26,899 nt of DNA from a virus. A program made the position numbers and the translations under genes. Positions 7,801 to 24,585 of this stretch are shown here, in pieces (position 1 is the stretch's first letter; each line of letters begins with the position of its first letter). The stretch is taken from positions 1-26,899 of IMG/VR virus record IMGVR_UViG_3300027788_000064. One strand, 5' to 3'. The notes under the pieces were generated by a model. That model did not search any database, had not been told where the DNA came from, and saw only the letters and a program-made list of their open reading frames with translations.

Positions 7801-10741
7801 CATAGCTAACACTACACAAGCAGGAGCTACTTTCCGATTAGAAAACACAAACACATCCACAGACACTAACACTACTTTCGGCACTATAAACTTTGAAGGT
7901 AACGACAACAGTGCAGGTGCTAACGGTATTAGAGGGTCTATTGTTGGTAAGTCTTTAAGCACTAATGGCGCTATGGGCTTGTTGTTTTCTACAGCTTCAG
8001 CAGGAGGCTCTAACACAGAACGCTTCCGCATAGCCGCTGACGGCTCTCTATCCACCCCAACGCTAGGAACCTCTAACGTCCGATTCGGTGTCAACGCAGG
8101 TAACAGCATTGCAAGCGGTGGTGATTATAATGTTGTCGTAGGCGATGAAGCAGGTACTGCGATTACTACGGGTGATGCTAATACGTTCCACGGTTATCAA
8201 GCAGGAGCCGCAACTACAACTTCTTCGGACAATACTGCTATTGGCGGTGCGGCGTTAGCAACAAACATTCTTGCGTCTAGTAATACTGCCATAGGTAAAA
8301 ATGCTTTATACAGCCACAACGTAGGCAGTGCGGCATCTACCTACAATACGGCGGTTGGGCATCATGCAGGTCTATTAGTAACCACAGGCATCCAAAACAC
8401 CCTCATCGGTGGTCTTGCGGGTGATGCTCTCACAGATGCTGATTATAATGTTGCACTAGGATACCTAGCTCTTTCGGCAGACACTCTTGGTAGTCGTTCA
8501 GTAGCTATAGGTTATAACACTTTAGGAGTACAAAACTTTACAAGTGCTACTAATACTTACAACATAGCCATCGGACACGGTGCAGGAGCCTCAGTCACCA
8601 CAGGCACAACCAACACCATCATAGGTGGGCTTGCGGGTGATGCAATTACTACAGCGTCTAACAACACAGCAGTGGGTTATTCCGCTTTAACTACCAACAC
8701 TACTGGCGATGGTCAGGCGTTTGGTGCTTATGCTTTATTTAGCAACACTACTGGCTCAAATAATACTGCGTTAGGGGCAACAGCTTTATACGCCAACACC
8801 ACGGGGGTAAACAACTTAGCCGCAGGTCTTGCTTCTTTACGTTATAACACTACTGGTGGCTCCAACGTTGCGCTAGGCGTTAATGCTCTTAATGCAAACA
8901 CAACCGCCTCTAACAACACAGCAGTTGGTTATCAGTCTTTACTCGCAAACACCACAGGCTCTGAAAATGTAGCAGTTGGACAGGGTGCTTTAACAGCTAA
9001 TACTACAGCACCAAATAACACAGCGGTAGGTTCAAGTGCTTTATTATCAAACACTACAGGTACAAAAAACGCAGCTTTTGGAACGTATACTTTAGATGCT
9101 TCTACAACTGGAGACAATAACACAGCAGTGGGTTATGCTTCTTTAAGCGCAAACACCACCGCCGCTAACAACACAGCAGTTGGTAGTAGTGCTTTAACAG
9201 CAAACACCACAGGCGCAGAAAATACAGCAGTGGGTCACGTAGCTTTAGCGTCAAACACCACAGGCGCTAGTAATACTGCTTTTGGTAGAGCCTCTTTAAA
9301 TGCAAACACTACTGCAAGTTATAATACTGCGTATGGTACAGATACTTTACAAGTTAACACTACAGGCGCTAACAACACAGCTACTGGTTACCGCGCTTTA
9401 TTTGTAAACACCACAGCCGCTAACAACACCGCAGTCGGTCACTTTGCTTTAGGCGCAAACACCACAGGCTCTGAAAACACGGCTGTCGGCGCAGAAGCAC
9501 TAGATGCCAATACAACTGGTTCTAGTAATAATGCTTTTGGGTATCATTCTTTAAGTAATAATACAACTGGTGGTGCAAATGTTGGTATAGGTAGAGGAGC
9601 TTTATTTTCAAATACAACTGCATCTAATAACACAGCAGTGGGTTACTTTGCTTTATTAGTAAACACCACAGGCGACAGAAATGTAGCTTTGGGCGCATAT
9701 ACACTAGACGCAAACACAACTGCTTCTGGAGCCACAGCTTTAGGTTATAACGCATTATCAGCAAACACCACAGGCTCAACAAACACAGGAGTGGGTTTCC
9801 ATGCTTTAAATGTGAACACCACAGGCGGCAGTAATGTTGCTGTAGGTGCGAGTGCATTACAAGCTAACACTACTGCTTCGAACAACACAGCGGTTGGTAC
9901 AAGTGCTTTAGCCGATAACACTACAGGGGACGAAAATAACGCTATTGGTGGTGGAGCTTTAGGTAACAACACCACAGGTGTAGATAATGATGCTCAAGGC
10001 TTTCATGCACTATTTGATAATACTACAGGTTCTTCTAATGTGGCGATGGGTAATAGGGCTTTAGCAACTAACACCACAGGCGAACAAAATGTGGCTGTTG
10101 GTTCTTCAGCAGGTGATTCAATTACTACAGGAAATAGAAATACAATTCTGGGGTACAATTCTGCTAATTCTTTAGCCGATGGAAGTGACAATGTGGCTCT
10201 TGGTCACCAAGTTGATGTTGGCGCATCTGTTGCTAATACTATTACTTTAGGAAGCGGTATAAGTGCTACAGGTAGTAATGACTTTTCGTTTGGTAAAGCA
10301 TCTAATGTTGTTACAAATGATTTTGATGCAGACGCAAACTGGTCAAGAAGTTCAGATGAAAGATTAAAGAAAAACATTGTAAATCAATCATTGGGTTTAG
10401 ATTTTATTAATGATCTTAGGACTGTTAAATATAACTGGAAGCCAAGTAATGAACTTGATGCTTCTGATGCGCAGTTAGCTCACTTACGCAGACGAGATGC
10501 GGATGGTAATGTTATTAATGATATGAATACCACAGTAACAATGCACAACTTTATCGCACAAGAAGTTAAAACAGCATTAGATACAGCAGGTGTGTCTAGC
10601 TTTGGTGGGTGGAAAGAAGATGACTTTGGAGTGCAACAAGTATCTCGTGAAATGTTTGTTATACCATTAGTCAAGGCCGTACAAGAACTCTCAACACAAC
10701 TAGATGCCGCACTCGCTCGCATCACAACCCTAGAAGGATAA
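4844..10741 (+). CDS. giant repeat-containing tail fibre with C-terminal S74 intramolecular chaperone
   Basis: This 1965-aa protein is the probable host-binding fibre. Residues 1-50 form a virion-anchor-like start with a His-x-His-Asp-Gly motif at 44-48, as in marine phage fibres. A stalk of repeats rich in DVDG, LDVVDIDGAV and LxVxG follows, with three 35-aa tandem units at 322-426 and a 42-aa segment present twice (676-717 and 820-861). From about 1070 to 1790 it is a long run of short repeats of the NTAVGxxALxANTTG type (28 units of mostly 17 aa from 1273), resembling YadA-like or beta-roll shafts. The end (about 1830-1965) is a peptidase S74 domain: SDERLKKNI with Ser1837 and Lys1842 spaced as in endosialidase, expected to trimerise the fibre and then cut itself off before Ser1837. 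GGAG at 4833-4836 sets the start. Codon use changes in patches, suggesting recombination. Confidence 0.88.
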   Translation: MSGTSYTRQSTFADGDTITASLFNTEYNQLVASFAYASSGTTGHQHDGGAGEGGNIHTIGDQDFLNKIVVDSTNNRWSVFVEVGGSAVEQVRIEDGVVYPVTDSDVDLGTNALRFKNAYIDSLTATGNLTVGGNITVTGNVDVDGIVEFDGLSGTGSVTVTDILDQDDMSGDSATALATQQSIKAYVDAQQDTVDTFGEVLALSNTTAGTDISVSTDDKVQFRDSAIYINSSADGQLDIVADTEIQIAATTIDINGAVALNGAVTGATNITLSGELDAATGDFSGAVDIDGALDVAGTTNLDVVDIDGAVDMATTLAVAGNVDFNGDLDVDGVTNLDVVDIDGAVNMATTLLVTGNVDFNGDLDVDGTTNLDVVDIDGAVNMATTLLVTGNVDFNGDLDVDGTTNLDVVDIDGAVDMASTLAVAGVLTAASLDISGDVDVDGTLETDALTIAGVTLAETISDTVGAMVASNTETGIAVTYDDADNTLDFVIGDNAIVQSMIADNAIDSQMYVDGSIDLIHMSANSVDSDQYVDGSIDTAHIADSQITSAKIVDGTIATGDIADDAVTGAKLANNIDIAGTLDVTGVLTADSNVVIAGNLTVQGDTTTLNTATLDVEDKNITLNKGAGDTSGSANGAGLTIQDAVDASNDATILWDTTNDEFDFSHPINVAGKVTSTGTSVFASLDISGDIDVDGTTNLDVVDIDGAVDMASTLQVDGAATFTTEITANGGIALGDNDKATFGAGDDLQIYHDATSSHSIIAESGGGSLLIRGQGVTLQNADGSKAYFGGSGDVATAYYGTSAKLATTSTGIDVTGTVTATGTSVFASLDISGDIDVDGTTNLDVVDIDGAVDMASTLQVDGSITSSDEMTITKAVDDQLTLAYNASNSTSYGYFSIVNNNVGNEFSIHTGGGKTLKLDANGDITFYAANGTTPSFVYDESLGLTINESGADRDFRVESDGNANMLFVDGGNNRVGVGTGSPDDDLHIANTTQAGATFRLENTNTSTDTNTTFGTINFEGNDNSAGANGIRGSIVGKSLSTNGAMGLLFSTASAGGSNTERFRIAADGSLSTPTLGTSNVRFGVNAGNSIASGGDYNVVVGDEAGTAITTGDANTFHGYQAGAATTTSSDNTAIGGAALATNILASSNTAIGKNALYSHNVGSAASTYNTAVGHHAGLLVTTGIQNTLIGGLAGDALTDADYNVALGYLALSADTLGSRSVAIGYNTLGVQNFTSATNTYNIAIGHGAGASVTTGTTNTIIGGLAGDAITTASNNTAVGYSALTTNTTGDGQAFGAYALFSNTTGSNNTALGATALYANTTGVNNLAAGLASLRYNTTGGSNVALGVNALNANTTASNNTAVGYQSLLANTTGSENVAVGQGALTANTTAPNNTAVGSSALLSNTTGTKNAAFGTYTLDASTTGDNNTAVGYASLSANTTAANNTAVGSSALTANTTGAENTAVGHVALASNTTGASNTAFGRASLNANTTASYNTAYGTDTLQVNTTGANNTATGYRALFVNTTAANNTAVGHFALGANTTGSENTAVGAEALDANTTGSSNNAFGYHSLSNNTTGGANVGIGRGALFSNTTASNNTAVGYFALLVNTTGDRNVALGAYTLDANTTASGATALGYNALSANTTGSTNTGVGFHALNVNTTGGSNVAVGASALQANTTASNNTAVGTSALADNTTGDENNAIGGGALGNNTTGVDNDAQGFHALFDNTTGSSNVAMGNRALATNTTGEQNVAVGSSAGDSITTGNRNTILGYNSANSLADGSDNVALGHQVDVGASVANTITLGSGISATGSNDFSFGKASNVVTNDFDADANWSRSSDERLKKNIVNQSLGLDFINDLRTVKYNWKPSNELDASDAQLAHLRRRDADGNVINDMNTTVTMHNFIAQEVKTALDTAGVSSFGGWKEDDFGVQQVSREMFVIPLVKAVQELSTQLDAALARITTLEG
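5807..6121 (+). repeat. three tandem 105-bp (35-aa) units in the fibre stalk
   Basis: Units start at 5807, 5912 and 6017, exactly 105 bp apart, each beginning Val-Asp-Phe-Asn-Gly-Asp-Leu-Asp-Val-Asp-Gly. They code for 35 residues each, and a partial fourth unit lies upstream from about 5722. Differences between units are almost all synonymous. The alternating Asp/Val/Gly pattern suits a trimeric beta-structured shaft. Confidence 0.9.
6869..6994 (+). repeat. 42-codon segment, copy 1 of 2
   Basis: Codes for TGTSVFASLDISGDIDVDG followed by TTNLDVVDIDGAV and DMASTLQVDG. The same 42 residues are encoded again at 7301-7426 without any amino-acid change, but 23 of 42 codons differ. Confidence 0.92.
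7301..7426 (+). repeat. 42-codon segment, copy 2 of 2
   Basis: Same protein sequence as 6869-6994, offset by 432 bp (144 codons). This copy uses mostly C-ending codons (GAC, GGC, ATC, TTC), including one Ser changed from AGT to TCC, in contrast to the T-ending codons of copy 1. Confidence 0.92.
8660..10110 (+). repeat. 28 tandem ~51-bp (17-aa) ANTTG repeats in the fibre shaft
   Basis: From about residue 1273 to 1756 the fibre is a run of units of the form Asn-x-x-Ala-x-Gly-x-x-x-Leu-x-x-Asn-Thr-Thr-(Gly/Ala)-x. I count 28 Leu-x-x-(Asn/Ser)-Thr-Thr blocks; one unit is 16 aa and the usual length is 17. Looser versions of the same repeat extend upstream to about 8045. The pattern is YadA-head/beta-roll-like. 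Codons vary freely (AACACCACA, AACACTACT, AATACAACT) while the residues stay fixed. The DNA has no CRISPR character, because the repeat is in frame and coding. Confidence 0.92.
10340..10738 (+). other. peptidase S74 (intramolecular chaperone) domain of the fibre
   Basis: The last about 129 residues carry the S74 signature. Ser1837 (codon at 10352) starts SDERLKKNI, and Lys1842 lies five residues later, the same Ser/Lys spacing as the autocleavage pair of endosialidase F (Ser911/Lys916). The domain ends in a helical part (EMFVIPLVKAVQELSTQLDA), as expected for the trimeric chaperone coiled coil. The mature fibre should end just before Ser1837. Confidence 0.85.
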
Positions 10742-11155: not shown

Positions 11156-11332
11156 ATGGAAGAAACCAAAGAAGTAATAGACATAGCCGCCGCAAGCACA
11201 GGAGTACTGACTATGATTAGTTGGCTACCACCTACTGCTTCTTTGTTTACAATTGTATGGCTAGGCATTAGGATTTATGAATCAGAAACAATTCAAAAAC
11301 TTGTTAATAGAAAGGTAGATAACGATGAGTAA
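11156..11332 (+). CDS. holin-like small membrane protein (58 aa)
   Basis: AAAGGA at 11141-11146 precedes the ATG by 9 nt. The product has an acidic start (MEETKEVIDIAAAS), one or two hydrophobic helices (about 14-40, including SWLPPTASLFTIVWLGIRIY) and a short charged tail (KLVNRKVDNDE). This build resembles class II holins of T7 gp17.5 type, which form holes in the inner membrane at lysis. Such a gene lies next to the fibre gene in T7 too. The last 8 bases overlap the start of the 1646-aa protein gene (ATGAGTAA), a tight translational link. The holin call rests on size, topology and position, so it is tentative; a structural membrane protein is the alternative. Confidence 0.6.
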   Translation: MEETKEVIDIAAASTGVLTMISWLPPTASLFTIVWLGIRIYESETIQKLVNRKVDNDE

Positions 11333-14300
11333 AAAAGAAAACAAGAAAACCGCTAACAAGACTTTGAAGTCTCTGAAACGTAAGCGATATGCTAAAGGCG
11401 GTCGCCCTGCTCTTATACCTAAGCCTATGCCAAAGTCTCCTGCTCCTTATGATGACAGCGATATTAAGCCTAAAGGTGCGACGGGTAACAGTTCAAATGT
11501 AGTTAAGCCCGATGTTTCAGATGTTTTTGTAGCTCCTACAATAACACAACCAACCGCTTCATCTTCAGCGCAACAAAAGGCTATAAGCACTGGAAGTGTA
11601 ACTAGAACAGGCCCAACAACAACGACTAGCGAGGTTCAAGGAGAAGGCGATCCAGATAGTCCTTTATATGATACTCCGCGTCCTGTTCCTGCAAATTCAG
11701 ATTATCCAACAGACGCAGAAACAAGAGAGCTAGCTCGATGGAACATAGCTAATGGTTTTAGCCCAGATACGGGTGGCGGCAGTGCGTCTTTTTCTACTGT
11801 TCCTACAGATATAAAAATCACAGGCCCACAAGCTAACATTCGTCAAATGGAATCTATAAATATTGATTCACAAGAAGGCATTACTGACCGTTCTGCTGTT
11901 CAACAGCTTACCGACGCTACAGACGCTACATCAAGTACTGTGACTGCGGAAACTATGACAGCTGAACAAGGAGGTGTAAAAACAGCGGTTGAAGGCCCAA
12001 CAACTAAAGATGCTAAAAAATACACAGCTGAAAAAGCCGGAAGTGTAGGCACTACTGTAGCCGCTAAATTTGATGAAGATGTTACTAAAGCTACAGCAGG
12101 TGGAACCGATGGGCAAGCCGTAGCTTCTGAAGCACCAAAAACCACACGCGATGATGCTAAAGAAACAGAAGCAAGAGGAACTGCGGCACAGCGCGACCCC
12201 GATTTAATTGATAAAAAATATGCTACAGCCGCTACAGATGGCGTTGCTGAGGTTGCTTCTGGAGTTGAAGGCCCTGATGTAGACACACGTACAGGCGTAA
12301 CAATACCACAATCTAAAATTGATGAAATTAAATTAGATGCTGAAAAACGTGGCGTTGATCCTGATCAAGCTTTAATAGACTACAGAAACTCTAGAGAGTT
12401 TAGAGAAGCCCAAACAGGCACAGCCGCTAAAGGCGATGCCGCTTCTATGAGTTCTTCTAAAGGAACTACTGCCTCCGCAGATTTCTTAGAAGCCGCTAAT
12501 GTTGCCGCAGGAAAGAAAGAACAAATAGCTGACGTAGGCGAAGCAGGTTTTGCAGATCGTGAAGGCCGTCAAGCCGCTGATCAAGGCGACATGGATTCCG
12601 CAACTGTAGGTGACGCACAAGCACAAAAAGACCGTAGAGATGCAGTTATAGAAGATCAATCTGCTGAAGCTACGGCTGAACAAACAGGCGAGTTACAAGA
12701 TTTTACATTGGAACTATCGCGCGAAAATCAAACAGGCGTGGCCGTTGAACGACAATATGAGTCAATGATTATTCCTGAAGATAAAAAACCTGCACAAGCA
12801 GAATACTATGCCGCAGACTTTACACCCGAAGGCGGCAATACAGACATAGATGCCATACCCGCTTATGAAGTAGCCGCTACAAGAACCGCACAAGTAGGAG
12901 AAGCCGCACAGCGCATTGCTACTGAACTAGGCGATGCAGAATCTGTAGATTTAGTAGGCCGTGAAGCTATTACAGGTGACGCGCCTCAAGGAGATGCCGC
13001 ACAAATTGGTGGTGTTCCTACAATGGCCGCCGCAACTATGCAAGCAGTTAAAGGCGAAGATAGAACCGTAGCCGCCGCAGATATGAACGCGGTTGTTGCA
13101 AACGTACAGCCAGAAATAACAGCCGCTATTGCTGAAGACCCTGCAACAGTTCGTGTAAAAGAAGACGAAGGTGCAGACCCACAAACTATTGCGGCTATTG
13201 CGGCTTTGCCTGTTGAAGCACTTGTCTCCACACAGATGGAAGGTTTACTTGCAGGTATGGAAGACGGTAAAACTCCATTGTGGGCTAAGCCCGCTATAGA
13301 TGCAATGAACCAACAAATGGCCGCTAGAGGTTTAAGTGTTTCTACTGTAGGCCGTGATGCATTGTTTAATGCTATTATACAAAGTGCGTTACCGATGGCT
13401 CAGAGCAATGCTCAAGCTTTACAGCAACGCGCACAGCAAAACTTGTCTAATCAACAGCAAGCTAATCTTTCGACTGCTCAAGGTGTTATGCAGATACGGA
13501 TGCAGAATCTTGCTAACCGTCAAACTGCCGCGTCACAGACTGCTCAAATGGCTCAGCAGATTCAAGTACAACAAGGTACATTTAATCAACAAGCTGTTAT
13601 GACTTCAGCAGAGCAACGGCAACAAACTGAATTAGCTAATGCACAAATGGCTCAGCAACGAGCGCAACAAACATCCGCACAGACTCAACAAGCCGCTATA
13701 GCTGAGTTAAGTACAAATGCTCAAATGGACTTAGCAAACTTGCAAGCTTTAAATCAAGCAGAGTCTCAAAACATGACTGCTGATCAACAAGCAAGATTGC
13801 AAACGTATAATGCTCAAATAAATAAAACTATGCGTCAGGCAGAACTTAATCAAGACATGGAAAAAGCTAATATTTCACAGTCTTTACAGGTTGAAATGCA
13901 ACGTGTGTCTGAAATGAATGCGGCCTCTAAAGATACAATGACCGCAGAAAATCAAGAGCGTATGACAAACATACAAACTCTTATAGACTTCCGTAAAACT
14001 GACGCACAGTTTGCTCAGCAAATGGACTTGGCTAACATGTCCAATGAGCAACAAATGGAACTTGCTAACTTATCTGAAAGAGCCGCTACAGACACAGCAA
14101 ACTTTACAGCAGAGAATCAATTTGAGTTAACAAGACTTAATAATGTTGTTACGCGAGCTAGTCGTCAAGCAGAACTAGATCAGCAAATGGAAGTTGCTAA
14201 CTTAGATAGCAGTTTAAAAATAGAACTATCTGAACTGTCTGAAAAGAACAACACCTCTCGTGCAAACATGAGCGCAGATCAACAAATGCGTTTAAAAAAC

Positions 14301-16265
14301 TTAGAAACTTTAGTAACCTTTAAAACTACAAACGCTCAACTAGCTCAGCAAATGGACTTAGCTAGTATGGGCAATGCACAGCAAATGGAAATGGCAATAT
14401 TAGCTGACAAATCTGCTACCGACAGTGCTAACTTTACAGAAGCTAATCGTTTTAAACTTACACAGCTACAGACTGCCGCACAGCACATGGCACAAAATAC
14501 TGAGTTCCGTCAGCAGACTGAGTTAGCTAACATGAGTTCAGAGGAGCGTTTACAGCTTGCTAATCTTTCGGCTCAGAACCAAGCGTCTTCAGAGAACTTA
14601 AATGCTCGACAACAAGTAGAGCTTGCTAACTTAAACGCTAAGCTAACTACAGGCGTAAAGAATGCTGAGATGCGTCAGCAAGCAATCTCTCAAACCTTTA
14701 GTACTGATCAGCAAACAGAGCTTGCAAACTTAGAGTCTTTAAACCGTGCTGATTCTGAATCATTAACTAACGAACAGCAGTCTAAGTTAACTACATACAA
14801 CGCTAAAGTTCAACGCTCTATACGCCAGACTGAGCTTAACTCGCGCATGGAAGAAGTAAATTTAGATGCAAGACTTAAAGTAGAGCTGTCAGAACTTTCT
14901 GAAAAGAACACAACAGAAAGAGCTAATATGTCTGCTGACCAACAAATGCGTCTTGCTAATCTTAATACTCTTGTAGACTTTAAGAAAACTAATGCGGGTT
15001 TTGCACAGCAAATGGAGCTTGCAAACTTAGGTAACGAACAGCAGATGGAGTTGGCTGAGTTGTCTGAAAGAGCCGCCGCAGATAATGCAAACTTTACTGA
15101 AGGAAACAGAGGACGATTACAAGAGCTTAATACTTATGTTCAGGTCATGTCTCAAAACGAACAGCTTGAACAGAATGCTGACATGGCTAATCTCTCTATG
15201 GAAGAGAAGATCAGTCTTGCTAATCTTAGCTCACGGAGTCAAGCTGACATGGCTTCTATGTCTGCTGAGAACATTGCAGAGCTTCAAGTCTACGAAAAGA
15301 AAATGGCGGCAGGACAGGTCAATGCACAGCTTGCACAGCAAATGGGACTTGCAAATCTTAGCAACGAACAAAGCGCGGCAATGTTTAACGCTCAAATAAA
15401 CGCTAACTTTGATATGAGCGAGTTTAGCGGTGAGCAACAAATGGCACTGGCTAACAGTAAGTTTATGCAGACTATGACGGCTACAAAGTTCAGTGCCGAT
15501 CAGCAAACAGCAATACAGAACGCTACAATGCTAACACAGGTTGATCTTGCTAACGCTGATGCACGTACAAAAGTATCCGTAGAGAATGCTAAGAACTTCT
15601 TAACTGTGGACATGGCTAACCTTAACAACGAGCAACAAGGTATTGTTATGGATCAACAAATGGCTCAACAGACTTTGTTGTCTGACCAAGCCGCTAAAAA
15701 TGCCGCGTTGCAATTTGGTGCTACATCTCAAAATCAACTAGATCAGTTTTTAATTAGTCAGTCTAACAACATGAAGCAGTTCAATACAAGTGCGCGAAAT
15801 GCTATGGAGTCCTTTAACGTCACTGAAGCTAATCGTACAGCGGCTATTGAAGCAGGAAACACGTTGCAAGCTAAAAGCCTAACTGCACAGCTTGAAGCAG
15901 ATATAAGCAAGTTTAACGCTTCTATTGACAACCAACGAGACACTTGGAATGCGGCAAACGCACAGGCTGTTGAACAGTCTAACATTCAGTGGCGTAGACA
16001 AGCTAATACTGCAAACACTGCCGCCGCTAATGCGGCTAATCAACAGAATGTTCAAAACTCATATAACATCTCTGCATTAGATCAGACTCAAATGTGGCAA
16101 TCACTGCGGGACGAGGCGGCTTATGTACGACAGGCTTATGAAGCAAACGAACAACGGAAAGCATTGTTGTTACAAACTGCTATTGGTAATGAAGCTTCAG
16201 CAAAAGAAAGCGAGACAAGTTTATACACATTAACACAAGTAGCCGCAAAATATTTTGGTGGATAA
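11325..16265 (+). CDS. giant virion-type protein with disordered first part and hendecad coiled coil (1646 aa)
   Basis: Residues 1-26 are very basic and end RYAKGG. About 30-600 is low-complexity, rich in Ala, Thr, Asp and Glu, and probably disordered. At 625-715 lies a better folded block with PLWAKPAIDAMNQQMAARG and ALFNAIIQSALPMAQSNAQ, seen in other marine phage proteins. From about 715 to 1480 it is a Gln/Asn/Ala-rich helix built of 11-residue units such as QQMELANLSER, with an exact 110-aa super-repeat. The C-terminal 100 residues contain QSNIQWRRQANTANTAA and MWQSLRDEAAYVRQAYEANE, also a shared marine phage pattern. No enzyme motif was found. Location before the presumed ejection proteins suggests a virion component, perhaps internal or fibre-like. 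The start is supported by AAAGG at 11311-11315. Function unknown; the architecture is clear. Confidence 0.8.
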   Translation: MSKKENKKTANKTLKSLKRKRYAKGGRPALIPKPMPKSPAPYDDSDIKPKGATGNSSNVVKPDVSDVFVAPTITQPTASSSAQQKAISTGSVTRTGPTTTTSEVQGEGDPDSPLYDTPRPVPANSDYPTDAETRELARWNIANGFSPDTGGGSASFSTVPTDIKITGPQANIRQMESINIDSQEGITDRSAVQQLTDATDATSSTVTAETMTAEQGGVKTAVEGPTTKDAKKYTAEKAGSVGTTVAAKFDEDVTKATAGGTDGQAVASEAPKTTRDDAKETEARGTAAQRDPDLIDKKYATAATDGVAEVASGVEGPDVDTRTGVTIPQSKIDEIKLDAEKRGVDPDQALIDYRNSREFREAQTGTAAKGDAASMSSSKGTTASADFLEAANVAAGKKEQIADVGEAGFADREGRQAADQGDMDSATVGDAQAQKDRRDAVIEDQSAEATAEQTGELQDFTLELSRENQTGVAVERQYESMIIPEDKKPAQAEYYAADFTPEGGNTDIDAIPAYEVAATRTAQVGEAAQRIATELGDAESVDLVGREAITGDAPQGDAAQIGGVPTMAAATMQAVKGEDRTVAAADMNAVVANVQPEITAAIAEDPATVRVKEDEGADPQTIAAIAALPVEALVSTQMEGLLAGMEDGKTPLWAKPAIDAMNQQMAARGLSVSTVGRDALFNAIIQSALPMAQSNAQALQQRAQQNLSNQQQANLSTAQGVMQIRMQNLANRQTAASQTAQMAQQIQVQQGTFNQQAVMTSAEQRQQTELANAQMAQQRAQQTSAQTQQAAIAELSTNAQMDLANLQALNQAESQNMTADQQARLQTYNAQINKTMRQAELNQDMEKANISQSLQVEMQRVSEMNAASKDTMTAENQERMTNIQTLIDFRKTDAQFAQQMDLANMSNEQQMELANLSERAATDTANFTAENQFELTRLNNVVTRASRQAELDQQMEVANLDSSLKIELSELSEKNNTSRANMSADQQMRLKNLETLVTFKTTNAQLAQQMDLASMGNAQQMEMAILADKSATDSANFTEANRFKLTQLQTAAQHMAQNTEFRQQTELANMSSEERLQLANLSAQNQASSENLNARQQVELANLNAKLTTGVKNAEMRQQAISQTFSTDQQTELANLESLNRADSESLTNEQQSKLTTYNAKVQRSIRQTELNSRMEEVNLDARLKVELSELSEKNTTERANMSADQQMRLANLNTLVDFKKTNAGFAQQMELANLGNEQQMELAELSERAAADNANFTEGNRGRLQELNTYVQVMSQNEQLEQNADMANLSMEEKISLANLSSRSQADMASMSAENIAELQVYEKKMAAGQVNAQLAQQMGLANLSNEQSAAMFNAQINANFDMSEFSGEQQMALANSKFMQTMTATKFSADQQTAIQNATMLTQVDLANADARTKVSVENAKNFLTVDMANLNNEQQGIVMDQQMAQQTLLSDQAAKNAALQFGATSQNQLDQFLISQSNNMKQFNTSARNAMESFNVTEANRTAAIEAGNTLQAKSLTAQLEADISKFNASIDNQRDTWNAANAQAVEQSNIQWRRQANTANTAAANAANQQNVQNSYNISALDQTQMWQSLRDEAAYVRQAYEANEQRKALLLQTAIGNEASAKESETSLYTLTQVAAKYFGG
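13600..15600 (+). repeat. 330-bp (110-aa) super-repeat made of 11-residue units
   Basis: Matching codons recur exactly every 330 bp. The Met of (A/T)(N/S)M-x-A-(D/E)-x-Q-type segments is at 13938, 14268, 14928 and 15258, with the equivalent Leu at 14598 and weaker matches at 13608 and 15588. A second anchor, the Met of AQQM(D/E/G)LA, is at 14022, 14352, 15012 and 15342. Inside each unit the protein divides into ten 11-residue blocks, as in right-handed hendecad coiled coils. Confidence 0.85.
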
Positions 16266-16276
16266 GGAGAATAAAG

Positions 16277-17617
16277 ATGGGTTGGTTAAGTAAAGCGTGG
16301 AAAGGTTTAAAGAAAGGCGTTAAAGGTATTGGTAAAGGAATTAAAAGCGCTTTTAAAAAGTTTGGTAAGTTCATGGGAAAGATTGGAATTTTTGGTCAAA
16401 TAGCTATGATGTTTATTTTGCCGGGAATTGGCCAAGCTCTTAGCGGAGCATTTAGTAGTTTAGTAGGTACAACAGCGGCTACAGCTACAGCTACGGCGAC
16501 AGCGGCTACATCAGCAGTTGCGGCAGGTACAGCTACAGCGGCTCAAGCAACCTTAGCGGCTACTGTAGCAGGAGGAGGAACAGCGGCGGCTTCTGCTGTA
16601 GCGGGTACAGGACTTTTAGGAGCTACAGGAAGCGGAGTTATCTCTACGATTGCGCGAGGAGCAGGACAAGTTCTTCAAGCCGCAGGTAATTTTGTTAAGG
16701 TTGGACACAGCGCATTTAAAACTGTAACTGAAGGTATAACTTCTTTTGTAGGCGAAATGGGCAAAACAACACTAAATCAAATTCCGGGAATTAATATTTC
16801 TAGCGGATCACAAACTTTTTCAGGCGCTTGGAAAAACGTCCAAAAAAACATAATGACTAATGCAGGACAAACTATAGAGGCTTTTAATACCGCCATAGGC
16901 TATACACCGGCACCTGCGCCTGTTGTGACTGCAACGCCTACAATGGGAACAAGCGGAACACCTACAGCTACAGATTCTGTGGGGTCTATGCCTGAAACAC
17001 CTTCTCTTGCAGGAGCGGATACGCCATATGTTGAGATACCTGACGCTCAAAATAGTTTAATGGCTCAGCCTGTAACGGCTCCTGTAACAGCCCCTGTAAC
17101 AGCTTCAACAACAAACGCACTTGAAAGTTATGGGCCTTTAAAAGTTAATCCACAGTTTAGTGCGGAAGGCTTATCTCCAGAGTTTCAGCCTAACTTTGGG
17201 CCACAAGAAGGACAAAGAGGCTTTTTTGAAAGTGCTTCTAATAAAGTTGGAGAAGTTTATAGAAATGCTACAACAAGCGTAACTGAAGGATTTGATAACT
17301 TTGTAGATGACCCTGTTGGAACCTTACTTGGTGAAGACCCTGCTGAAAAAATGGTAGATAGAGCGTCTGCACAATTAACAAGTACTGGTATAAACCGTCT
17401 TGTCATGGGCAAGCCTGAAGCTCCTGATTACTTTACAACTAATATCCAAGGTATTAGTCCAATGTCATCGACTATAGAGTATGGCTCCCCTGAAATAAAT
17501 GCAAGAGCTTTTGAAATGAATACAAACTTGTTTAATTTCCAAGCTATCAGACCTTGGGGCGCATCAGCTTATAATAATCATATTCAAACTATTAATAAGT
17601 TTTATCAAGGAAATTAA
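16277..17617 (+). CDS. probable internal virion/membrane-active protein with cationic amphipathic N-terminus (446 aa)
   Basis: AAGGAG at 16264-16269 gives a strong start. The first 35 residues are Lys/Gly/Phe-rich (SKAWKGLKKGVKGIGKGIK and following), like a cationic amphipathic peptide, and run straight into a hydrophobic segment (IGIFGQIAMMFILPGIGQ, about 37-55). Next come an Ala/Thr/Gly-rich stretch (about 65-125) and a Pro/Thr/Ala-rich middle (about 210-290) with repeats of (A/P)PVTAPVTA type. The last part is mixed alpha/beta and contains FFESASNKVGEVYRNATTSV. Similar Lys-rich starts occur in unnamed marine phage structural proteins. Given its neighbours, an ejected protein that inserts into the host membrane is a reasonable inference (compare T7 gp14), but sequence identity cannot be claimed. 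Confidence 0.68.
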   Translation: MGWLSKAWKGLKKGVKGIGKGIKSAFKKFGKFMGKIGIFGQIAMMFILPGIGQALSGAFSSLVGTTAATATATATAATSAVAAGTATAAQATLAATVAGGGTAAASAVAGTGLLGATGSGVISTIARGAGQVLQAAGNFVKVGHSAFKTVTEGITSFVGEMGKTTLNQIPGINISSGSQTFSGAWKNVQKNIMTNAGQTIEAFNTAIGYTPAPAPVVTATPTMGTSGTPTATDSVGSMPETPSLAGADTPYVEIPDAQNSLMAQPVTAPVTAPVTASTTNALESYGPLKVNPQFSAEGLSPEFQPNFGPQEGQRGFFESASNKVGEVYRNATTSVTEGFDNFVDDPVGTLLGEDPAEKMVDRASAQLTSTGINRLVMGKPEAPDYFTTNIQGISPMSSTIEYGSPEINARAFEMNTNLFNFQAIRPWGASAYNNHIQTINKFYQGN

Positions 17618-17620
17618 ATC

Positions 17621-18226
17621 ATGCAGAAAGAAGAATTTTTAAAATTTAGATCGCAGATGAAAGCTCCAATTCCCGGCCAATCATTAACTAATGATCCTGA
17701 AAGCCCTGCTCCGTATGAGCAAGCACCAAGGTTTACTAGTGTACACGATGCAAGTTTATATTTATGGTCTGAAATAACTGATCCTGAAATGTATATACCA
17801 GTAATGGAATCTCTTTCAAACAAAATGCCTGTATTAAGTATAGTACAAACAATTTTGTTTGGAGAGTTTCAGCGCGGAACTTTTAATCCTGATTTGTTGC
17901 TTATGCTTGTTGAGCCTTTAACTTATATGTATATTGCTTTAGCTGAAAGGTTAGATATTGATGTTGTAATTTATGACGGTGAAGATGAAGATGAAGAAGC
18001 TGATGAAAGATTATTAGGTGCTAAGTTGCAAGAATCTCAACTTGAAGACATGAAAAAAGCGGCGCGGTCTGGTCGCGTTCCAGAAGGCGTAATAACAAAA
18101 GAAATGCAAGCGGAGTTAAAAACACTGCCAAGACTTCCTAGCCTTATGGATAGACCACCCGAAGCCCCTGAAGAAGTACAAGAACCTACAACCGACCAGA
18201 GCCTAATGGCTCCACAGCAAGGATAA
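17621..18226 (+). CDS. hypothetical acidic protein of marine phage type (201 aa)
   Basis: AAGG at 17607-17610 lies 10 nt ahead of the ATG. The start MQKEEFLKFRSQMKAPIPGQ is followed by a folded part (about 40-120) with Trp, Pro and long hydrophobic helices (VLSIVQTILFGEF, PDLLLMLVEPLTYMYIAL), and then by an acidic, Pro-rich, disordered tail (EDEDEEADE near 127). I recognise the PIPGQSLT...PDxLLLLxEP pattern from unnamed marine phage proteins encoded among virion genes. No function is known to me. The gene sits between two presumed internal virion proteins with gaps of 3 and 5 bp, so it belongs to the same unit. It could be a small core protein or an assembly chaperone. Confidence 0.7.
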   Translation: MQKEEFLKFRSQMKAPIPGQSLTNDPESPAPYEQAPRFTSVHDASLYLWSEITDPEMYIPVMESLSNKMPVLSIVQTILFGEFQRGTFNPDLLLMLVEPLTYMYIALAERLDIDVVIYDGEDEDEEADERLLGAKLQESQLEDMKKAARSGRVPEGVITKEMQAELKTLPRLPSLMDRPPEAPEEVQEPTTDQSLMAPQQG

Positions 18227-18231
18227 AAATT

Positions 18232-20172
18232 ATGGCTATGGACATGAGTAAAGTTAAGGGCCAAAGCTCTACGGAGTATGGTGAAAGTTTGTTGGCTGAA
18301 ACGCAAGCAAGTAATGCTCGTATTAGAAAACAAAATCAAAAAAACTCAGATAAATATGCGCGGATGTCTTTAGGTGTAAATGCCGCAATAGGCTTTGCTG
18401 AAAATGTAATGGAAAAAAAACAACAAGAATTTTTTGCTTTAGAAGAAAATGCAAAGAACATATTGCAAACTAAAAACGCATACACAAACGCTTCTACGGT
18501 CACTGAAGAAGAGAAGCTTGCACAGGCGAATAAAACAGGTTATAGTTCTTATTTTAATAGCATAGCTGAAAATAATGTAAGAGAAGCTTTGACTGCTAGG
18601 TATGCTGAACAAGGCGTATATAGTAAAATACAGTTTGATGGACTTGTAAAAAGTGGAGCCTTTGAGTTAGGTAAAAAATTACAAGCGGCGCATGAAGACA
18701 AGTATAAAGCCGCTCAAGATTATTTACAGACAACTGGTGAGGGAGGAAAAACAGCTTACTTAAATGTTCTTAAAAAACAAAAACCGTCTGATATTAAAGG
18801 GATGTTAAATAATTTTGTAGGCAGTGTCACAGGTCTTTCAGGCGAAGATGCTCTTAACCAACAAGCAGAATCAATTTTAGGCAGTGCAACACAATTTGAA
18901 AACTACCGCAAAATTTATCAAGAAACTAAAAATGCTGATGTTGCGATTCTTTTTGCAGAAGCTTTACCTGAAGAATTAAAACCTGCCGCACTTACCTATG
19001 GTAAAACAGCAGTTAAAACAGGTACAAACATATTAGGAGAAGATACTTTTTCTGTAATGGTGTCTGACCCAAATCAAAACGGTAAAACATGGCTTGCAGA
19101 TTTAGGTAACGGTGAAGTTCAAACAAGCACTGTTGTGAAAAAACAAAATTCATTCTCTTCTATAGTAAGCCAACTTAAAGATGGCGATGCTTTTAGTAAT
19201 CGCGGTGTAGCTATCGCAATGAAGATTCCTGATAGTTTAAAAAATAAACTAGCTGAAAATCTAAATGATAAAGCTACAGAGGCGGGAAGCGCAACTTGGA
19301 AAGATGATAAAGGGCGAATAGCTTATGTAGCGTCACAAAACAAACAACTACAAAAAGAAGTAGGCGCAGTTGCGTTACAGCTTAAAAGATCATTTAGAGA
19401 AGATATAGGCGATGATCAAATTGATACGATTACAAGTTCTTTATTAACTCTACATATTAATAACCCAAAAATGGGTGTAATGCGGAAAGGTGCAGGTGTT
19501 GCTAATCCTTATTTTACACTGCTTGCTATAGATAATGCTGTATCTTCTGGAGCTATGAAACAGAACAACGCAGTTGTATCTAAGATTTTAGGCGAAGGAG
19601 GAATAAATTTGTATTCTTCTTATGCAGAAGCTTCTAAAAATGAACGGCCTAATATTTTAAAAACTTTAGATTCTCTACACGCAAGTTCAAAAGAATCAGG
19701 GTTTGATGTTTTTAAAAATGTAATTGTAGAAGCGGATAAATTACAACTTGCTTCTAGTCAAACAGGTAATACAGCAGATTATTTAACTGATAGACAGGCT
19801 TATATACAAGCAAGTCAAAATATTACAACTGGGATAGGCTCACAAGTTAGAGCGGCACAATCGGCAGAAAAGAAATCAAACATGGATAATGTTTTTAAAG
19901 CTCTTAGCGTTATTGCAGAAGGCGACAACGAGCCTAGCATTACTTTAAACAGTAGAACAAAAAAATATAAAGATAGTGTAGCTATTGTTAAAGCCATGAC
20001 CCCTGAACAACAAGAAAAGTTTACAGTCGAGAAAAACAATAGGATAGATTATTTAAAAACAACAATGCCTAAAGTTTCAATTGCAATGCGTGGCAAAATG
20101 CGTACAGAGCTTAAAAAACTAGAAAATAACTATGATGGATATATTTCTAAATATTTCACTGAGGTTGAATAA
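18232..20172 (+). CDS. probable internal virion protein (646 aa)
   Basis: AAGG at 18219-18222 is 9 nt from the ATG; in-frame ATGs at 18238 and 18244 are less well placed. The product is largely alpha-helical, charged and Gln/Lys/Asn-rich, starting with helices such as NARIRKQNQKNSDKYARMSL and continuing through coiled-coil-like parts to the end. No catalytic motif or membrane segment is seen. It lies immediately before, and touching, the 1470-aa gene (TAA then ATG), as T7 gp15 (747 aa) precedes gp16. The simplest reading is a helical core or ejectosome protein that forms a channel through the periplasm. This rests on size, helicity and gene order. Confidence 0.62.
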   Translation: MAMDMSKVKGQSSTEYGESLLAETQASNARIRKQNQKNSDKYARMSLGVNAAIGFAENVMEKKQQEFFALEENAKNILQTKNAYTNASTVTEEEKLAQANKTGYSSYFNSIAENNVREALTARYAEQGVYSKIQFDGLVKSGAFELGKKLQAAHEDKYKAAQDYLQTTGEGGKTAYLNVLKKQKPSDIKGMLNNFVGSVTGLSGEDALNQQAESILGSATQFENYRKIYQETKNADVAILFAEALPEELKPAALTYGKTAVKTGTNILGEDTFSVMVSDPNQNGKTWLADLGNGEVQTSTVVKKQNSFSSIVSQLKDGDAFSNRGVAIAMKIPDSLKNKLAENLNDKATEAGSATWKDDKGRIAYVASQNKQLQKEVGAVALQLKRSFREDIGDDQIDTITSSLLTLHINNPKMGVMRKGAGVANPYFTLLAIDNAVSSGAMKQNNAVVSKILGEGGINLYSSYAEASKNERPNILKTLDSLHASSKESGFDVFKNVIVEADKLQLASSQTGNTADYLTDRQAYIQASQNITTGIGSQVRAAQSAEKKSNMDNVFKALSVIAEGDNEPSITLNSRTKKYKDSVAIVKAMTPEQQEKFTVEKNNRIDYLKTTMPKVSIAMRGKMRTELKKLENNYDGYISKYFTEVE

Positions 20173-23100
20173 ATGTCAGAAGAAACTAAGATGTGGACGC
20201 TAGGGCCAGTTAATTTAGGAGGCGGTGAATACGTTCCAGAAACAGGCGAGTATTCTGTTACAGATTTTGAAGAAGACCCAGTAGTAATAAGCAACTTTGA
20301 AATTGTTTCTGATTACTTAGCTGAGAATATGGGCGTAGGTTCAGCACTTGTTGATCAGTCAACTATAGGAAAGCAGACTGACGTTGCAGAGTATCAAAGA
20401 GATTTTACAGGTCGTATAGGCGCTAATTTTTCTAGGGCCGCCGCGTTTAAAGACGCTCCTGAACATGTCAAAGAAGCGCAAAGAGAATTAAATAGACGGT
20501 TTGAATCTGCTAACTTAACTGGAACAGGAGAGTGGCTAGGAGCTATCAAAGACTATACAGTAGATACTGTGTTTAACCCTGAGATGGTAGCAACTTTAGC
20601 ATCTATAGGCTCTGCTGTGCCAACAGGTGGAGTAAGTGTTGTTGGTAGAGTAGGCGCGGGTCAAGCTATTAAGTCTGCATCTAAAAAAGTTTTAGGCGAG
20701 GCGCTTACTAAATCAGTGGCTTCTTCTTCTAAAAATCCTTTAGTCTCTTCTATGGGTATTGGCTCTGTATATGGTGGGGCAGGTGGAGCAGGACTACAGT
20801 CTATGGATGTAGCAATAGATAATAGAGAAGACTACAGTGTAGGCGAAATAGCGCAAACAGCTTTAATGGGTGCGGGTTTTGGTGCGGGTATTTATGGCGC
20901 TACTAAAATAGGAAAGCAGTATTTTCAAAGAGGCACTGACTTTGCTGAAGACATTTCTGTAGAAAACGCTGTAAAGATTTTTGACGATAGCGTTAAAGAC
21001 GGCAGTGTCCCTCCTTCTGCTAATAGTATTATTGTAGATTTAACTAACTTGGGTGAGGACTCAGCTAACGTATCTAAAACAGTTAAGGATTTATTAGAAG
21101 ACACCTCAAGTTCTATTTCTGTTAATGTTAGTAAGCTTACTAAAGAACTAGGCGGCGGGGAAAAAACAAAAGAAGAAATACTAGATATTATTAAGAACGC
21201 CGCAGATAGTTCTACTACTGCTAAAGACGTAAAAAATGAAATTATGCACGGGCTTTATAAAAAAACAAGCATGGTTTCAGGACAGTTATTTGGAAAAGCC
21301 GCAGGTGTGTTGTCTCCAATGGCAAAACTTTCAGGAACTGCAAAAGTGTTGCAAGCTAAATTTAGTTATGAGTTTGGAACAGGTTGGAAAAAAAGCACTA
21401 AGGTTGTAGAAAAAGACCTGTCAGAGAACCAACGAGAAATTACAGGACGTTTTAATGAAAGGTTCCGTGGAATTGTAGAGGGTGTTTCTCTAAACGCGGC
21501 TAAAGGAACACTAGCTGAAGACGTAAACAACGTACTTATGTTAGCACTACGCGGCAATAAATCTTTAGCTAATAACGGTTTAGATAAAGCTACTAATAAA
21601 GCAATCAATGATGCGGCCAGTGAAATTAAAATATTATATAATGATATGGGCAATCAATTAAAAGACATTGGAGTTATTGACGCTCTTGTCCCAGATTACA
21701 TTCCTCGTATGTGGAATCGTAAAGCTATTGAAGAAAACCAAACTAAACTTGCAGAGCTTTTAGAATCTAAAGGCAAGTTTGGTGCAGGAGAAGGTAAAAA
21801 AGCTGTTGATGATATGCTTGCTATAAAAGATCAGATTGATGGTGGCGGCTCAGGCGGCCATTTCTTTTCAGCGAAGAGAAAATTAAATGGGATTGAAAAT
21901 GACGCAGACTTCCAAGAGTTTTTAAACAACGATGTTTTAGGATCGTTACACATGTATACTTTTCAAGCGGGAAAGTCGTTAGCTAAGCACCGCACATTTG
22001 GCGTTAATAATTTAAAAGACTTTTCAGAATTTTACATTCCACGGATTCGTAATGAGCTATTAGCTAAAGGACAGAAGCTGTCTCAATCAGAAGAAGATAC
22101 TATTTTAACATTGTACAAAACCGCTACAGGCGAAGGCATGGAAAGATACGGTAAAAAAGCACAGACGGCTGTAGATGTTTATGGCTTTGCTAACCGCGTA
22201 GCTATGCTTCCTCTTGCAACTGTTTCTAGTTTAACAGAAGTATTTCTTAACATTAGCAAAGTAGGTGTTCGTAAGTCTATAAAAGGTTTTAATGAAGCCC
22301 TAGAAATATCGTGGAAAGGTATAACTAAAGATTTAGAATCAACACTAAAGACTAATAACAATTTAACAGCCAAAGAAGCTTTTTCTGAAATGACTAAGTT
22401 TAGCATTAACATGGATCAAGCAATGGCGCAGTTAGGTGATAGACTTGCAGGTGCTGAGCTTGTTAACGAAACATTGCAAAATGCAAGCAACAAGTTTTTC
22501 CGTGTAACTATGCTAGACCAGTGGACTAAGTTTGTACAAACAACTTCTTACGCCAGTGGAAAGCTTTTAATTAAAGAAAACATTGAAGCTCTTGCGGCTA
22601 ACGGTAGCAAACCTTTAAATAAAAGACTTGAAACTATGGCAGGAGAGTTAGCTGAACTAGGCATAGATTATAAGCAAGGCGTGAAGTGGTTTAAAAATGG
22701 GTCTAAAGTTACAGATAAGTTTTATGACTCTCAAGTTCTAGGAGGAGCGGCGCGATATACTAACTCAGTTATTTTACAACCTACTTCTATGTCAGGACTA
22801 AAGCCGTTGTTGCACTCTAATCCTAAAACTGCTATTGCTTTTCAATTGTTAGGCTATCCGGTTGCCTTTACAAATACTGTATTAAAAGGAGCCGCGAAGC
22901 AACTTGTTAAAGACCCAGTACGGAACACAGCTAAAATAGCAACAGCCGCTACAATTATGACAGGCATGGCGCGTTGGACAAACTATGTTCGTTCAGATGG
23001 CGCAAGCGAAGAAGGAAAAGATTTAGATGAAATACTATATAGCTCTGTAGCTCGTTGGGGCGGTAATGGTATATTGTTAGACACGTTTGCAAGAGCGCAG

Positions 23101-24585
23101 AAAACCGCAATGTATTCTCAGAATGCGGCGGCGTATGGCGCAATGCCTTTTGGCCCCGTAGTTTCTGACACTTTAAATTTATTTCAACAGGGCATTATTC
23201 CTGTAGTTGGTCAAAAGCTTCCCTTCTATACAGCCTTTGCACCCGCAATGGATTTAGCAGGTATGGACGGAACAGATCAAATGCGAACGTATAGAAAGCA
23301 CTTGTTAGAAATTCAAAGAAGAATGTCGGCTAGTGTACTTCCAAAGTTTGAAGAGTCTATTCCTGTAGTCGGATACTCCACGGGAGGCGAGGTTACAAAT
23401 GTTCCTAATGTTCCTACTGAGCCTGATGAGCGTATAGATAAACTAACAGGTCGTCCGTATAACGAACAAGCGGGTACTGCATATATGGATAAGGTAGATG
23501 ATGAGCGAGAAAAGAAAAATAAAGGAGGCCCACTAAATGATGAGCCGCTTTCTATTACTAAAATTATATCTAATAACGTAGGTAACACATCAAACGCTGT
23601 GGAAATTAAAGCTACTGCTCTTAGAATTAAAAAAAGTTTAATCGGCTTAGAAGCTCAAGGAGTTATAAAGTCTAAAGACCCTGAAGTGTTAAACTACGTA
23701 ACAGCCTTAATAATAAGTGGGGTGTTAGCTCCGTCTTTTAAAAGTATTAACGACTTAGAAAAAATACCTTCTTGGAAAAAAGCAGTTGAGGCTTTTAGTA
23801 ACGAAAAACTGTGGGAAAAAGCACAGATAGATTTAGGAGTTACTAACAAACAACAGGTGGCGCTAGAAACTATCGCTACAGTTTCTGAAAAAGTAGACCC
23901 TGAAGGCGCTATAAATTCTGTAGTTACTCCTCTTCTTAGTACCTTAGCTCACAAAGTAAGAGAAAATAAAAATAATACAGAAGTTAAAAAGTCTGTAAAA
24001 GAGATGGATACGGCGGCCAGTAAAAGAGTCAAGAAGAACAGCGGCGGGGTGCTTATTGATCCTGTAGCTCAAGCACTTGCTGAAGCGTCAACACTAAGCG
24101 ACACGCCAGTTTCTTCAGCTAAAAGATATTATGGTAGAGATGCTATTAATGAAGTAGTAAAAAGAGAAGGTGCGCTAACTTCCGATCAAGAGTACGTTGT
24201 TGAACACGAAGGGTTTGTAGACGGTGAGTATAAAGACACTAAAGGTATTGTAACAAGCGGTGTAGGTCAGACAGGCGAATTTATAGGTCGGTCTTTTAAA
24301 GAAACATACGAAGGACAGCGACAAAGAGTAAAGAAAAAAATTCCTAATTATGATACCCTTTCTGAAAACCAACAAAAAGCTTTAATGTCTTTAGGATATA
24401 GAGGCGATATGAAAAAAGATTATAATTGGGTTAAACTTTTTAATAAGGGAGAGTATGACAAAGCCGCAGTAGAATTATTAGATCACACAGAATACAAAAA
24501 GTTAAAAGGTATTGTTAAAAAAGGCGGGAAAGTTAGCGGTATTATTGGTCGTTTAGAGGAAGCCTCAAGGCTTCTTAAAGATTAA
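20173..24585 (+). CDS. giant internal virion/ejection protein with C-terminal GH24 lysozyme domain (1470 aa)
   Basis: GAGG at 20161-20164 precedes the ATG, which abuts the previous stop. The long body is helical with Gly/Ala-rich, possibly membrane-inserting stretches (about 135-260), including GSVYGGAGGAGLQSM and LMGAGFGAGIYGATKIG. A middle part contains PDYIPRMWNRKAIEEN (about 510-525), reminiscent of large ejection proteins. Around 1067-1110 is the Pro/Asp-rich segment NVPNVPTEPDERIDKLTGRP common in marine phage structural proteins. The end (about 1330-1470) is a lysozyme: Glu1346, Asp1355 and Thr1361 have the E-8-D-5-T spacing of T4 lysozyme (E11/D20/T26), within HEGFVDGEYKDTKGIVTSGV. It should cut peptidoglycan during DNA entry, possibly also at lysis. 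T7 gp16 also joins a large core protein to a murein-cutting domain, but at the N-terminus. Confidence 0.82.
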   Translation: MSEETKMWTLGPVNLGGGEYVPETGEYSVTDFEEDPVVISNFEIVSDYLAENMGVGSALVDQSTIGKQTDVAEYQRDFTGRIGANFSRAAAFKDAPEHVKEAQRELNRRFESANLTGTGEWLGAIKDYTVDTVFNPEMVATLASIGSAVPTGGVSVVGRVGAGQAIKSASKKVLGEALTKSVASSSKNPLVSSMGIGSVYGGAGGAGLQSMDVAIDNREDYSVGEIAQTALMGAGFGAGIYGATKIGKQYFQRGTDFAEDISVENAVKIFDDSVKDGSVPPSANSIIVDLTNLGEDSANVSKTVKDLLEDTSSSISVNVSKLTKELGGGEKTKEEILDIIKNAADSSTTAKDVKNEIMHGLYKKTSMVSGQLFGKAAGVLSPMAKLSGTAKVLQAKFSYEFGTGWKKSTKVVEKDLSENQREITGRFNERFRGIVEGVSLNAAKGTLAEDVNNVLMLALRGNKSLANNGLDKATNKAINDAASEIKILYNDMGNQLKDIGVIDALVPDYIPRMWNRKAIEENQTKLAELLESKGKFGAGEGKKAVDDMLAIKDQIDGGGSGGHFFSAKRKLNGIENDADFQEFLNNDVLGSLHMYTFQAGKSLAKHRTFGVNNLKDFSEFYIPRIRNELLAKGQKLSQSEEDTILTLYKTATGEGMERYGKKAQTAVDVYGFANRVAMLPLATVSSLTEVFLNISKVGVRKSIKGFNEALEISWKGITKDLESTLKTNNNLTAKEAFSEMTKFSINMDQAMAQLGDRLAGAELVNETLQNASNKFFRVTMLDQWTKFVQTTSYASGKLLIKENIEALAANGSKPLNKRLETMAGELAELGIDYKQGVKWFKNGSKVTDKFYDSQVLGGAARYTNSVILQPTSMSGLKPLLHSNPKTAIAFQLLGYPVAFTNTVLKGAAKQLVKDPVRNTAKIATAATIMTGMARWTNYVRSDGASEEGKDLDEILYSSVARWGGNGILLDTFARAQKTAMYSQNAAAYGAMPFGPVVSDTLNLFQQGIIPVVGQKLPFYTAFAPAMDLAGMDGTDQMRTYRKHLLEIQRRMSASVLPKFEESIPVVGYSTGGEVTNVPNVPTEPDERIDKLTGRPYNEQAGTAYMDKVDDEREKKNKGGPLNDEPLSITKIISNNVGNTSNAVEIKATALRIKKSLIGLEAQGVIKSKDPEVLNYVTALIISGVLAPSFKSINDLEKIPSWKKAVEAFSNEKLWEKAQIDLGVTNKQQVALETIATVSEKVDPEGAINSVVTPLLSTLAHKVRENKNNTEVKKSVKEMDTAASKRVKKNSGGVLIDPVAQALAEASTLSDTPVSSAKRYYGRDAINEVVKREGALTSDQEYVVEHEGFVDGEYKDTKGIVTSGVGQTGEFIGRSFKETYEGQRQRVKKKIPNYDTLSENQQKALMSLGYRGDMKKDYNWVKLFNKGEYDKAAVELLDHTEYKKLKGIVKKGGKVSGIIGRLEEASRLLKD
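24160..24582 (+). other. GH24 (T4-type) lysozyme domain
   Basis: The catalytic triad spacing is intact: Glu1346 (codon at 24208), then Asp nine residues and Thr fifteen residues later. SGVGQTGEF occupies the position of the T4 lysozyme IGIGH segment, with Gln-Thr in place of the usual His. Downstream NQQKALMSLGYRGDM matches the usual 'Q..AL.SL.YN.G' helix of phage lysozymes. Confidence 0.82.

Follow-up and report, generated by a model that had tools for sequence, protein, structure and literature searches.

The T7 proteins gp14, gp15 and gp16 and the DEV (Schitoviridae) proteins gp73, gp72 and gp71 form ejection blocks (PMC8954989, PMC10925440). Protein H of phiX174 makes a decameric tube of long helices, 17 nm in length; its chain has three hendecads followed by heptads, in a helix unbroken except for one kink (PMC7354561). 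The tape measure proteins of siphophages are built of 11-residue units with Phe or Trp markers (Belcaid et al. 2011, PMC3271669). The hendecad families of Martinez-Goikoetxea and Lupas (2023), in so far as they are described in PMC11676326, show strict 11-residue periodicity and growth by amplification. The protein described here shares features with all of these. It belongs to the HMO-2011-type phages. These are short-tailed (PMC9038755, PMC8528129), are described as ranking with the most abundant viruses of the sea (PMC9038755), and have heads of about 70 nm in the imaged isolates (PMC8528129). None of the isolates imaged in the papers that we consulted carries a multi-module array, and we found there neither virion proteomics of relatives of the protein nor microscopy or proteomics of a member with two or more modules.

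The window is the whole stretch of DNA that we analysed, 26,899 nucleotides of the IMG/VR virus record IMGVR_UViG_3300027788_000064. Its major capsid protein is related to those of HTVC115P (60%) and HMO-2011 (46%), and it also encodes an SU10-adaptor-like protein, a further tail protein and a 1965-residue fibre with an S74 chaperone. The repeat protein, P0001, is among the largest structural genes of HMO-2011-type phages, nameless and without an assigned function. Its homologues include phage1322_25 of HMO-2011, HTVC103P gp59, CHOED_013 and MQM1_018. Searches of Pfam and PHROG matched no family, tape-measure families included. Four remote homologues likewise matched none above chance, the gp14, gp15 and gp16 families included. 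Against the PDB, phmmer gave nothing at E<=1, and the family profile found only KMP-11, at chance level (E 0.6-0.75). The module array lies between a conserved head, which holds anchor A, and a helical C-terminal part with anchors B and C (Table 1), and from its composition the N-terminal Ala/Thr/Asp-rich part is probably disordered.

Table 1. Layout of P0001 and of the genes downstream of it (positions in the window).
Feature	Position	Strand	Remarks
P0001, repeat-protein ORF, 1646 aa	11325..16265	+	Gene of an HMO-2011-type podovirus
Residues 1-644	11325..13256	+	Basic start, then Ala/Thr/Asp-rich part
Anchor A, residues 645-730	13257..13514	+	Best-conserved part of P0001; consensus PxWARPAV...RGLSxSTVGRDALFNAIIQSALPMAQSNAQALQQRAxQNLSN
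Module 1 (type A), residues 706-815	13440..13769	+	Hendecads, few N-cap signatures
Module 2 (type B), residues 816-925	13770..14099	+	
Module 3 (type B), residues 926-1035	14100..14429	+	
Module 4 (type E), residues 1036-1145	14430..14759	+	
Module 5 (type B), residues 1146-1255	14760..15089	+	
Module 6 (type D), residues 1256-1365	15090..15419	+	
Residues 852-1291	13878..15197	+	55-residue two-helix units in two models
Anchor B, residues 1366-1430	15420..15614	+	
Residues 1459-1542	15699..15950	+	In the 11-phase of the array
Anchor C, residues 1510-1615	15852..16169	+	
446-aa neighbour	16277..17617	+	PHROG tape-measure phrog_167, E 3.8e-6; weak internal-virion-protein match
201-aa protein	17621..18226	+	Conserved downstream block
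646-aa protein	18232..20172	+	Penultimate in block; T7 gp15-like by position only
1470-aa protein	20173..24585	+	C-terminal phage lysozyme domain (Pfam), residues 1344-1449

Our best guess from gene position is that P0001 is a virion protein of the HMO-2011-type ejection apparatus, as the block downstream resembles those of T7 and DEV. Like the T7 and DEV ejection proteins, P0001 is alpha-helical and neighbours a block whose last protein is very large, in this case with a lysozyme domain. This last protein matches phrog_7348 ('endolysin', E 0), and its position, size and enzyme make it a candidate gp16-like ejection protein. In the isolates with enough annotated flank the P0001 homologue is directly upstream of a block ending in a protein of at least 800 residues. 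P0001 differs from the T7 and DEV proteins in being an extra component upstream of the block, has no similarity to the known three, and carries a modular array not known from them. One objection to giving it this task is that the 646-residue neighbour, which has no sequence match to T7 gp15, could already provide a gp15-like tunnel. That P0001 is a DNA-ejection protein with an exchangeable spacer array of 110-residue modules is the reading we favour, tentatively, at a little short of an even chance.

The 110-residue repeat of 11-residue blocks is real. It is nested, 11 within 55 within 110 residues: amino-acid self-identity at a lag of 110 residues reaches 0.296, compared with 0.091 in shuffled sequences (z 19.7), with z 16.5 at lag 55 and 7.5 at lag 11, and lags 7, 10 and 12 give no signal against shuffles. 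The first-pass annotation had described an exact 330-bp repeat running through about seven units with no indel. Its spacing and phase are borne out, with Met codons at 13938, 14268, 14928 and 15258 (Leu at 14598) and a second set at 14022, 14352, 15012 and 15342 (Ala at 14682), and the 11-phase stays unbroken between about residues 694 and 1560. The number of 110-residue modules from anchor to anchor comes down to six (residues 706-1365), and the sequence is far from exact: DNA identity at a lag of 330 bp averages 46%, the best 165-bp stretch reaching 70%, and within residues 781-1460 the protein identity is 32%, 35% and 38% at lags of 110, 220 and 330. Inside the window protein modules are 16-62% identical to one another, whereas they share 56-91% identity with their counterparts in the array-bearing relatives that we compared. 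Each module thus has its own identity, and 'exact' fits the phase, not the sequence.

Scanning IMG/VR with the whole of P0001 gave 26 loci and with its most conserved part 80, and we measured lengths between profiles of anchors A, B and C. In the clade the distance from A to B is 61+110k residues, with k running from one to seven modules, and that from B to C is 144 in every member with both anchors. The length from A to C falls in one class modulo 11 in all 76 non-redundant relatives and in one class modulo 110 in 72 of them, so the strict phase proposed from the window alone extends to the family. N-terminal lengths in the 76 relatives vary freely, from 242 to 1057 residues, and occupy all eleven classes modulo 11. 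Three related sequences are one hendecad short, the deletion sitting in the first module. The 110-residue module is two 55-residue halves of five hendecads each, and self-similarity at lag 55 equals that at lag 110 in several relatives. No relative measured has an odd number of halves. The missing half-module steps hint that the 110-residue step is under selection, but as the clade has no more than about six distinct lengths they do not prove it.

Measured against the window, isolates of the wider group (several of which have a partial module or lack modules altogether) are offset by whole numbers of hendecads: -50 in HTVC103P, -58 in HMO-2011 and CRP-1, -62 in MQM1 and Slicky01, -63 in CHOED, -64 in CRP-3 and HTVC033P, and -65 in phiM6 and RHph_N3_13. 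We left L004 and ctYwJ313 out of this set, their profile matches having fallen on internal repeats. As matches to periodic sequence tend to land in phase anyway, the anchor lengths within the clade are the strongest evidence for phase. A scan of genome contigs found only three array-bearing contigs, all from MAGs, with two, three and two modules; assignment of a host from the MAG bin is unreliable for these.

Clustering of the modules reveals a grammar, with arrays of the types AC, ABD, ABBD, ABEBD, ABBEBD (the window) and ABEBEBD. A flank-based tree of 74 proteins requires 20 or more changes in module number, the 11-residue loss among them; since arrays are exchangeable, these do not amount to 20 separate length events. 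Sister phages can carry arrays differing by up to three modules. In the pairs L072/L084, L033/L051 and L011/L004 the DNA identity is 0.89-0.91 in the head and 0.89-0.96 in the tail, while corresponding modules are mostly at 0.61-0.83; the last module of L033/L051, at up to 90%, is the exception. In L075/L073 identity falls from about 0.9 to 0.7, and does so inside the array only. This mismatch between flanks and array suggests that arrays, whole or partial, are swapped between phages, and on the sequence comparisons they appear to be. Recent duplication in place was considered as the main route to new lengths and rejected: no tandem copies of a module are nearly identical, the best 165-bp identity overall being 77%. 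The quantisation in steps of 110 residues, the module grammar and the apparent array exchange are the most informative new facts about this protein.

Module number may nevertheless be unselected and drift through unequal recombination between 330-bp repeats. This explanation is compatible with the spacer reading, and we regard it as a real possibility, if a minority one. Recombination alone gives multiples of the repeat, whole-module steps are likely without selection, and the array tolerates anything from one to seven modules. Against it, half-module steps are absent even from relatives whose halves are as alike as their modules, recent near-identical duplicates are lacking, and the order of modules obeys a grammar.

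The first-pass annotation had also predicted one right-handed coiled coil, almost straight and about 108 nm long, with a hydrophobic peak near 11/3. The hydrophobic positions of the hendecad are 0, 8 and 6 and, in part, 2 and 9. With alanine counted as hydrophobic, power in the repeat core is 1.0 at 11/3, which is background, against 43 at both 11/5 and 11/4; with bulky residues only it is a moderate 13.7 at 11/3 against 50 and 41 at the other two periods. The expected peak is therefore absent or weak, depending on the residues counted. Placed on an 11/3 helix, the hydrophobic positions make up two opposite faces, and this explains why the maxima are at 11/5, the second harmonic of 11/3, and at 11/4. 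P0001 resembles the hendecad families, as far as PMC11676326 relates them, in its strict periodicity and in growth by amplification; it differs from that description in lacking a single 11/3 seam and in its nested 55- and 110-residue order with predicted breaks at N-caps.

AlphaFold2 models of the array are also broken. The run on residues 645-1646, for which 48 relatives were used, shows helices of about 30 and about 16 residues in alternation over approximately residues 794-1284 (some 490 residues, pLDDT 70-88), with low confidence outside this region and a pTM of 0.32. The pattern came again when residues 852-1291 (440 residues) were run with 33 relatives, with a mean pLDDT of 80.6 and a pTM of 0.44; lower-ranked models scored 52-66. 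Predicted helix starts alternate 33 and 22 residues apart, making a 55-residue two-helix unit, and always fall at hendecad position 2, behind an N-[LMF]-[ST/D/N/G] motif. Family-wide, 381 of 392 predicted starts (97%) carry an N-cap residue, against 268 of 588 other hendecads (46%). The 10,780 repeat residues contain seven prolines, each of them located at one and the same predicted start, although, the sequences being related, these represent a handful of events. Module 1 lacks most of the N-cap signatures and is predicted, at low confidence, as a mostly continuous helix. No solved structure resembled either model at E<=0.001 in a fold search, and the single match in a viral library was an uncultured-virus protein, presumably a homologue. 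Coevolution within the module, at an effective depth of 15, is too shallow to settle the packing. The missing or weak 11/3 peak, the broken models, and the N-cap and proline statistics that agree with them leave the straight 108-nm rod unsupported, and the array is probably not one. The 11-phase is real and conserved; the hairpin array is predicted and the function inferred.

Hendecad coiled coils are reported to be handled poorly by AlphaFold, and long coiled coils to come out of it spuriously bent (PMC11676326), and a continuous helix thus stays a live rival. Continuous hendecad helices side by side could form an alpha-helical tube like that of phiX174 H, with positions 1 and 5 facing the lumen, charged positions 3 and 7 facing outwards, and the two opposite hydrophobic seams binding neighbours. 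This tube was our favoured model until the AlphaFold2 result demoted it, and we now think it unlikely, if still worth carrying. The strong 11/5 peak is what two opposite seams would give. Positions 1 and 5 hold Gln, Ser, Asn and Thr and are 19% charged, compared with 48-52% at positions 3 and 7, and one module of 110 residues would, if helical, span 16.5 nm, close to the H tube. The tube was proposed from the fit of H hendecads to the family profile, which is best in one register, with glutamines at positions 1 and 5 (P = 0.01 over all registers, in a test that followed an alignment by eye). H and P0001 share the hendecad layout [LI]-A-x-[LM]-x-x-x-x-Q-x-E with an amide-rich polar face and two interface seams, and a phage DNA-delivery setting that is suspected for P0001; the likeness is one of 'works like' and not of membership. 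P0001 differs in having dozens of hendecads, predicted to break at N-caps, and in matching no PDB chain by sequence. About 860 continuous residues would also reach some 130 nm, far longer than an envelope is thick.

A ruler was another suggestion of the first-pass annotation. It might act like a tape measure protein, setting the length of the tail or an internal core by a fixed increment per module, and is improbable. The strict phase on which it drew holds, as do the 11-residue units, the evolution by copy number and the C-terminal aromatic markers, with Phe or Trp at residues 1464, 1475, 1486, 1497, 1530 and 1541 and Ile or Leu at 1508 and 1519, reminiscent of the siphophage proteins (PMC3271669); the next gene, moreover, has the PHROG tape-measure match. 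The markers are limited to residues 1464-1541, the rest of the array using Leu, Met and Ala, and P0001 differs from tape measure proteins in its 110-residue step, its short-tailed group and its lack of a family match. No long-tail tube gene is recognised between the capsid and fibre genes. The ruler is not borne out: close sisters differ in module number, apparently by array exchange, and we found no linked length in adjoining tail or capsid proteins, although the data are few. The idea that module number tracks the lengths of neighbouring proteins was not supported, with only weak correlations in 7-9 loci, uncorrected for phylogeny.

An external fibre or whisker projecting from the tail is just as improbable. 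In its favour, P0001 is long, helical and repetitive, it can be exchanged as a host-range cassette is, and the tail fibre gene lies two genes upstream of it. Against this, its conserved linkage is with the downstream block, no receptor-binding or chaperone domain was found in it, and the S74 chaperone belongs to a different gene, that of the fibre.

We therefore return to P0001 as an ejection protein with an exchangeable spacer. In each relative that we measured, the array and its two flanks keep to a single 11-phase. If the models are right, each 55-residue half of an internal module would be a helix of about 30 residues and one of about 16, packed into a compact helical array, with the first module and the C-terminal part more like continuous hendecad helices. 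The array might then be an extendable spacer that fixes both the distance and the rotational register between the head and the C-terminal part. Whole modules would keep that register and half modules would not. As arrays are exchangeable, a phage lineage could gain a spacer of another length. A bolder version, which we hold to be quite unlikely, is that the four-helix module is a full structural turn of the ejection array, so that turns could be added or removed while keeping spacing and register, and cassettes exchanged to fit host envelopes.

The natural variants with one to seven modules are a ready-made length series. Should P0001 be part of the ejection path, the fit of conduit to envelope could be measured with them. 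The 110-residue quantisation also provides a clean case in which to part geometric selection from repeat-mediated recombination.

Several smaller observations concern the neighbouring genes. At E<=1e-3 the phage record collection contains nothing that matches the 646-residue protein, although relatives of its neighbours are present there; the middle of the ejection block is evolving very fast. The 1965-residue tail-fibre-like protein (4844-10741) contains a 105-bp tandem repeat of 3.4 copies (5721-6081), 51-bp repeats of the NTTGSNNTAVG type (9119-9480) and a C-terminal S74 endosialidase chaperone domain. The tail protein at 3233-4840 matches PHROG 5107 'amidase', and the proteins in the same place in CHOED and Slicky01 were deposited as 'dimodular nonribosomal peptide synthetase'; in both cases a tail protein seems to carry a propagated misannotation. 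In the Pelagibacter phage HTVC033P (L114:172-2286) the P0001 homologue is immediately preceded by two genes for 2OG-Fe(II) oxygenases and one for a putative ferrochelatase, in the place of the tail genes of other phages. Past the lysozyme gene (24587-26536) the window encodes a protein of 145 residues that has a strong transmembrane segment, and one of 240 residues with a signal-like start, overlapping a 286-residue ORF; these possibly have lysis or secreted functions.
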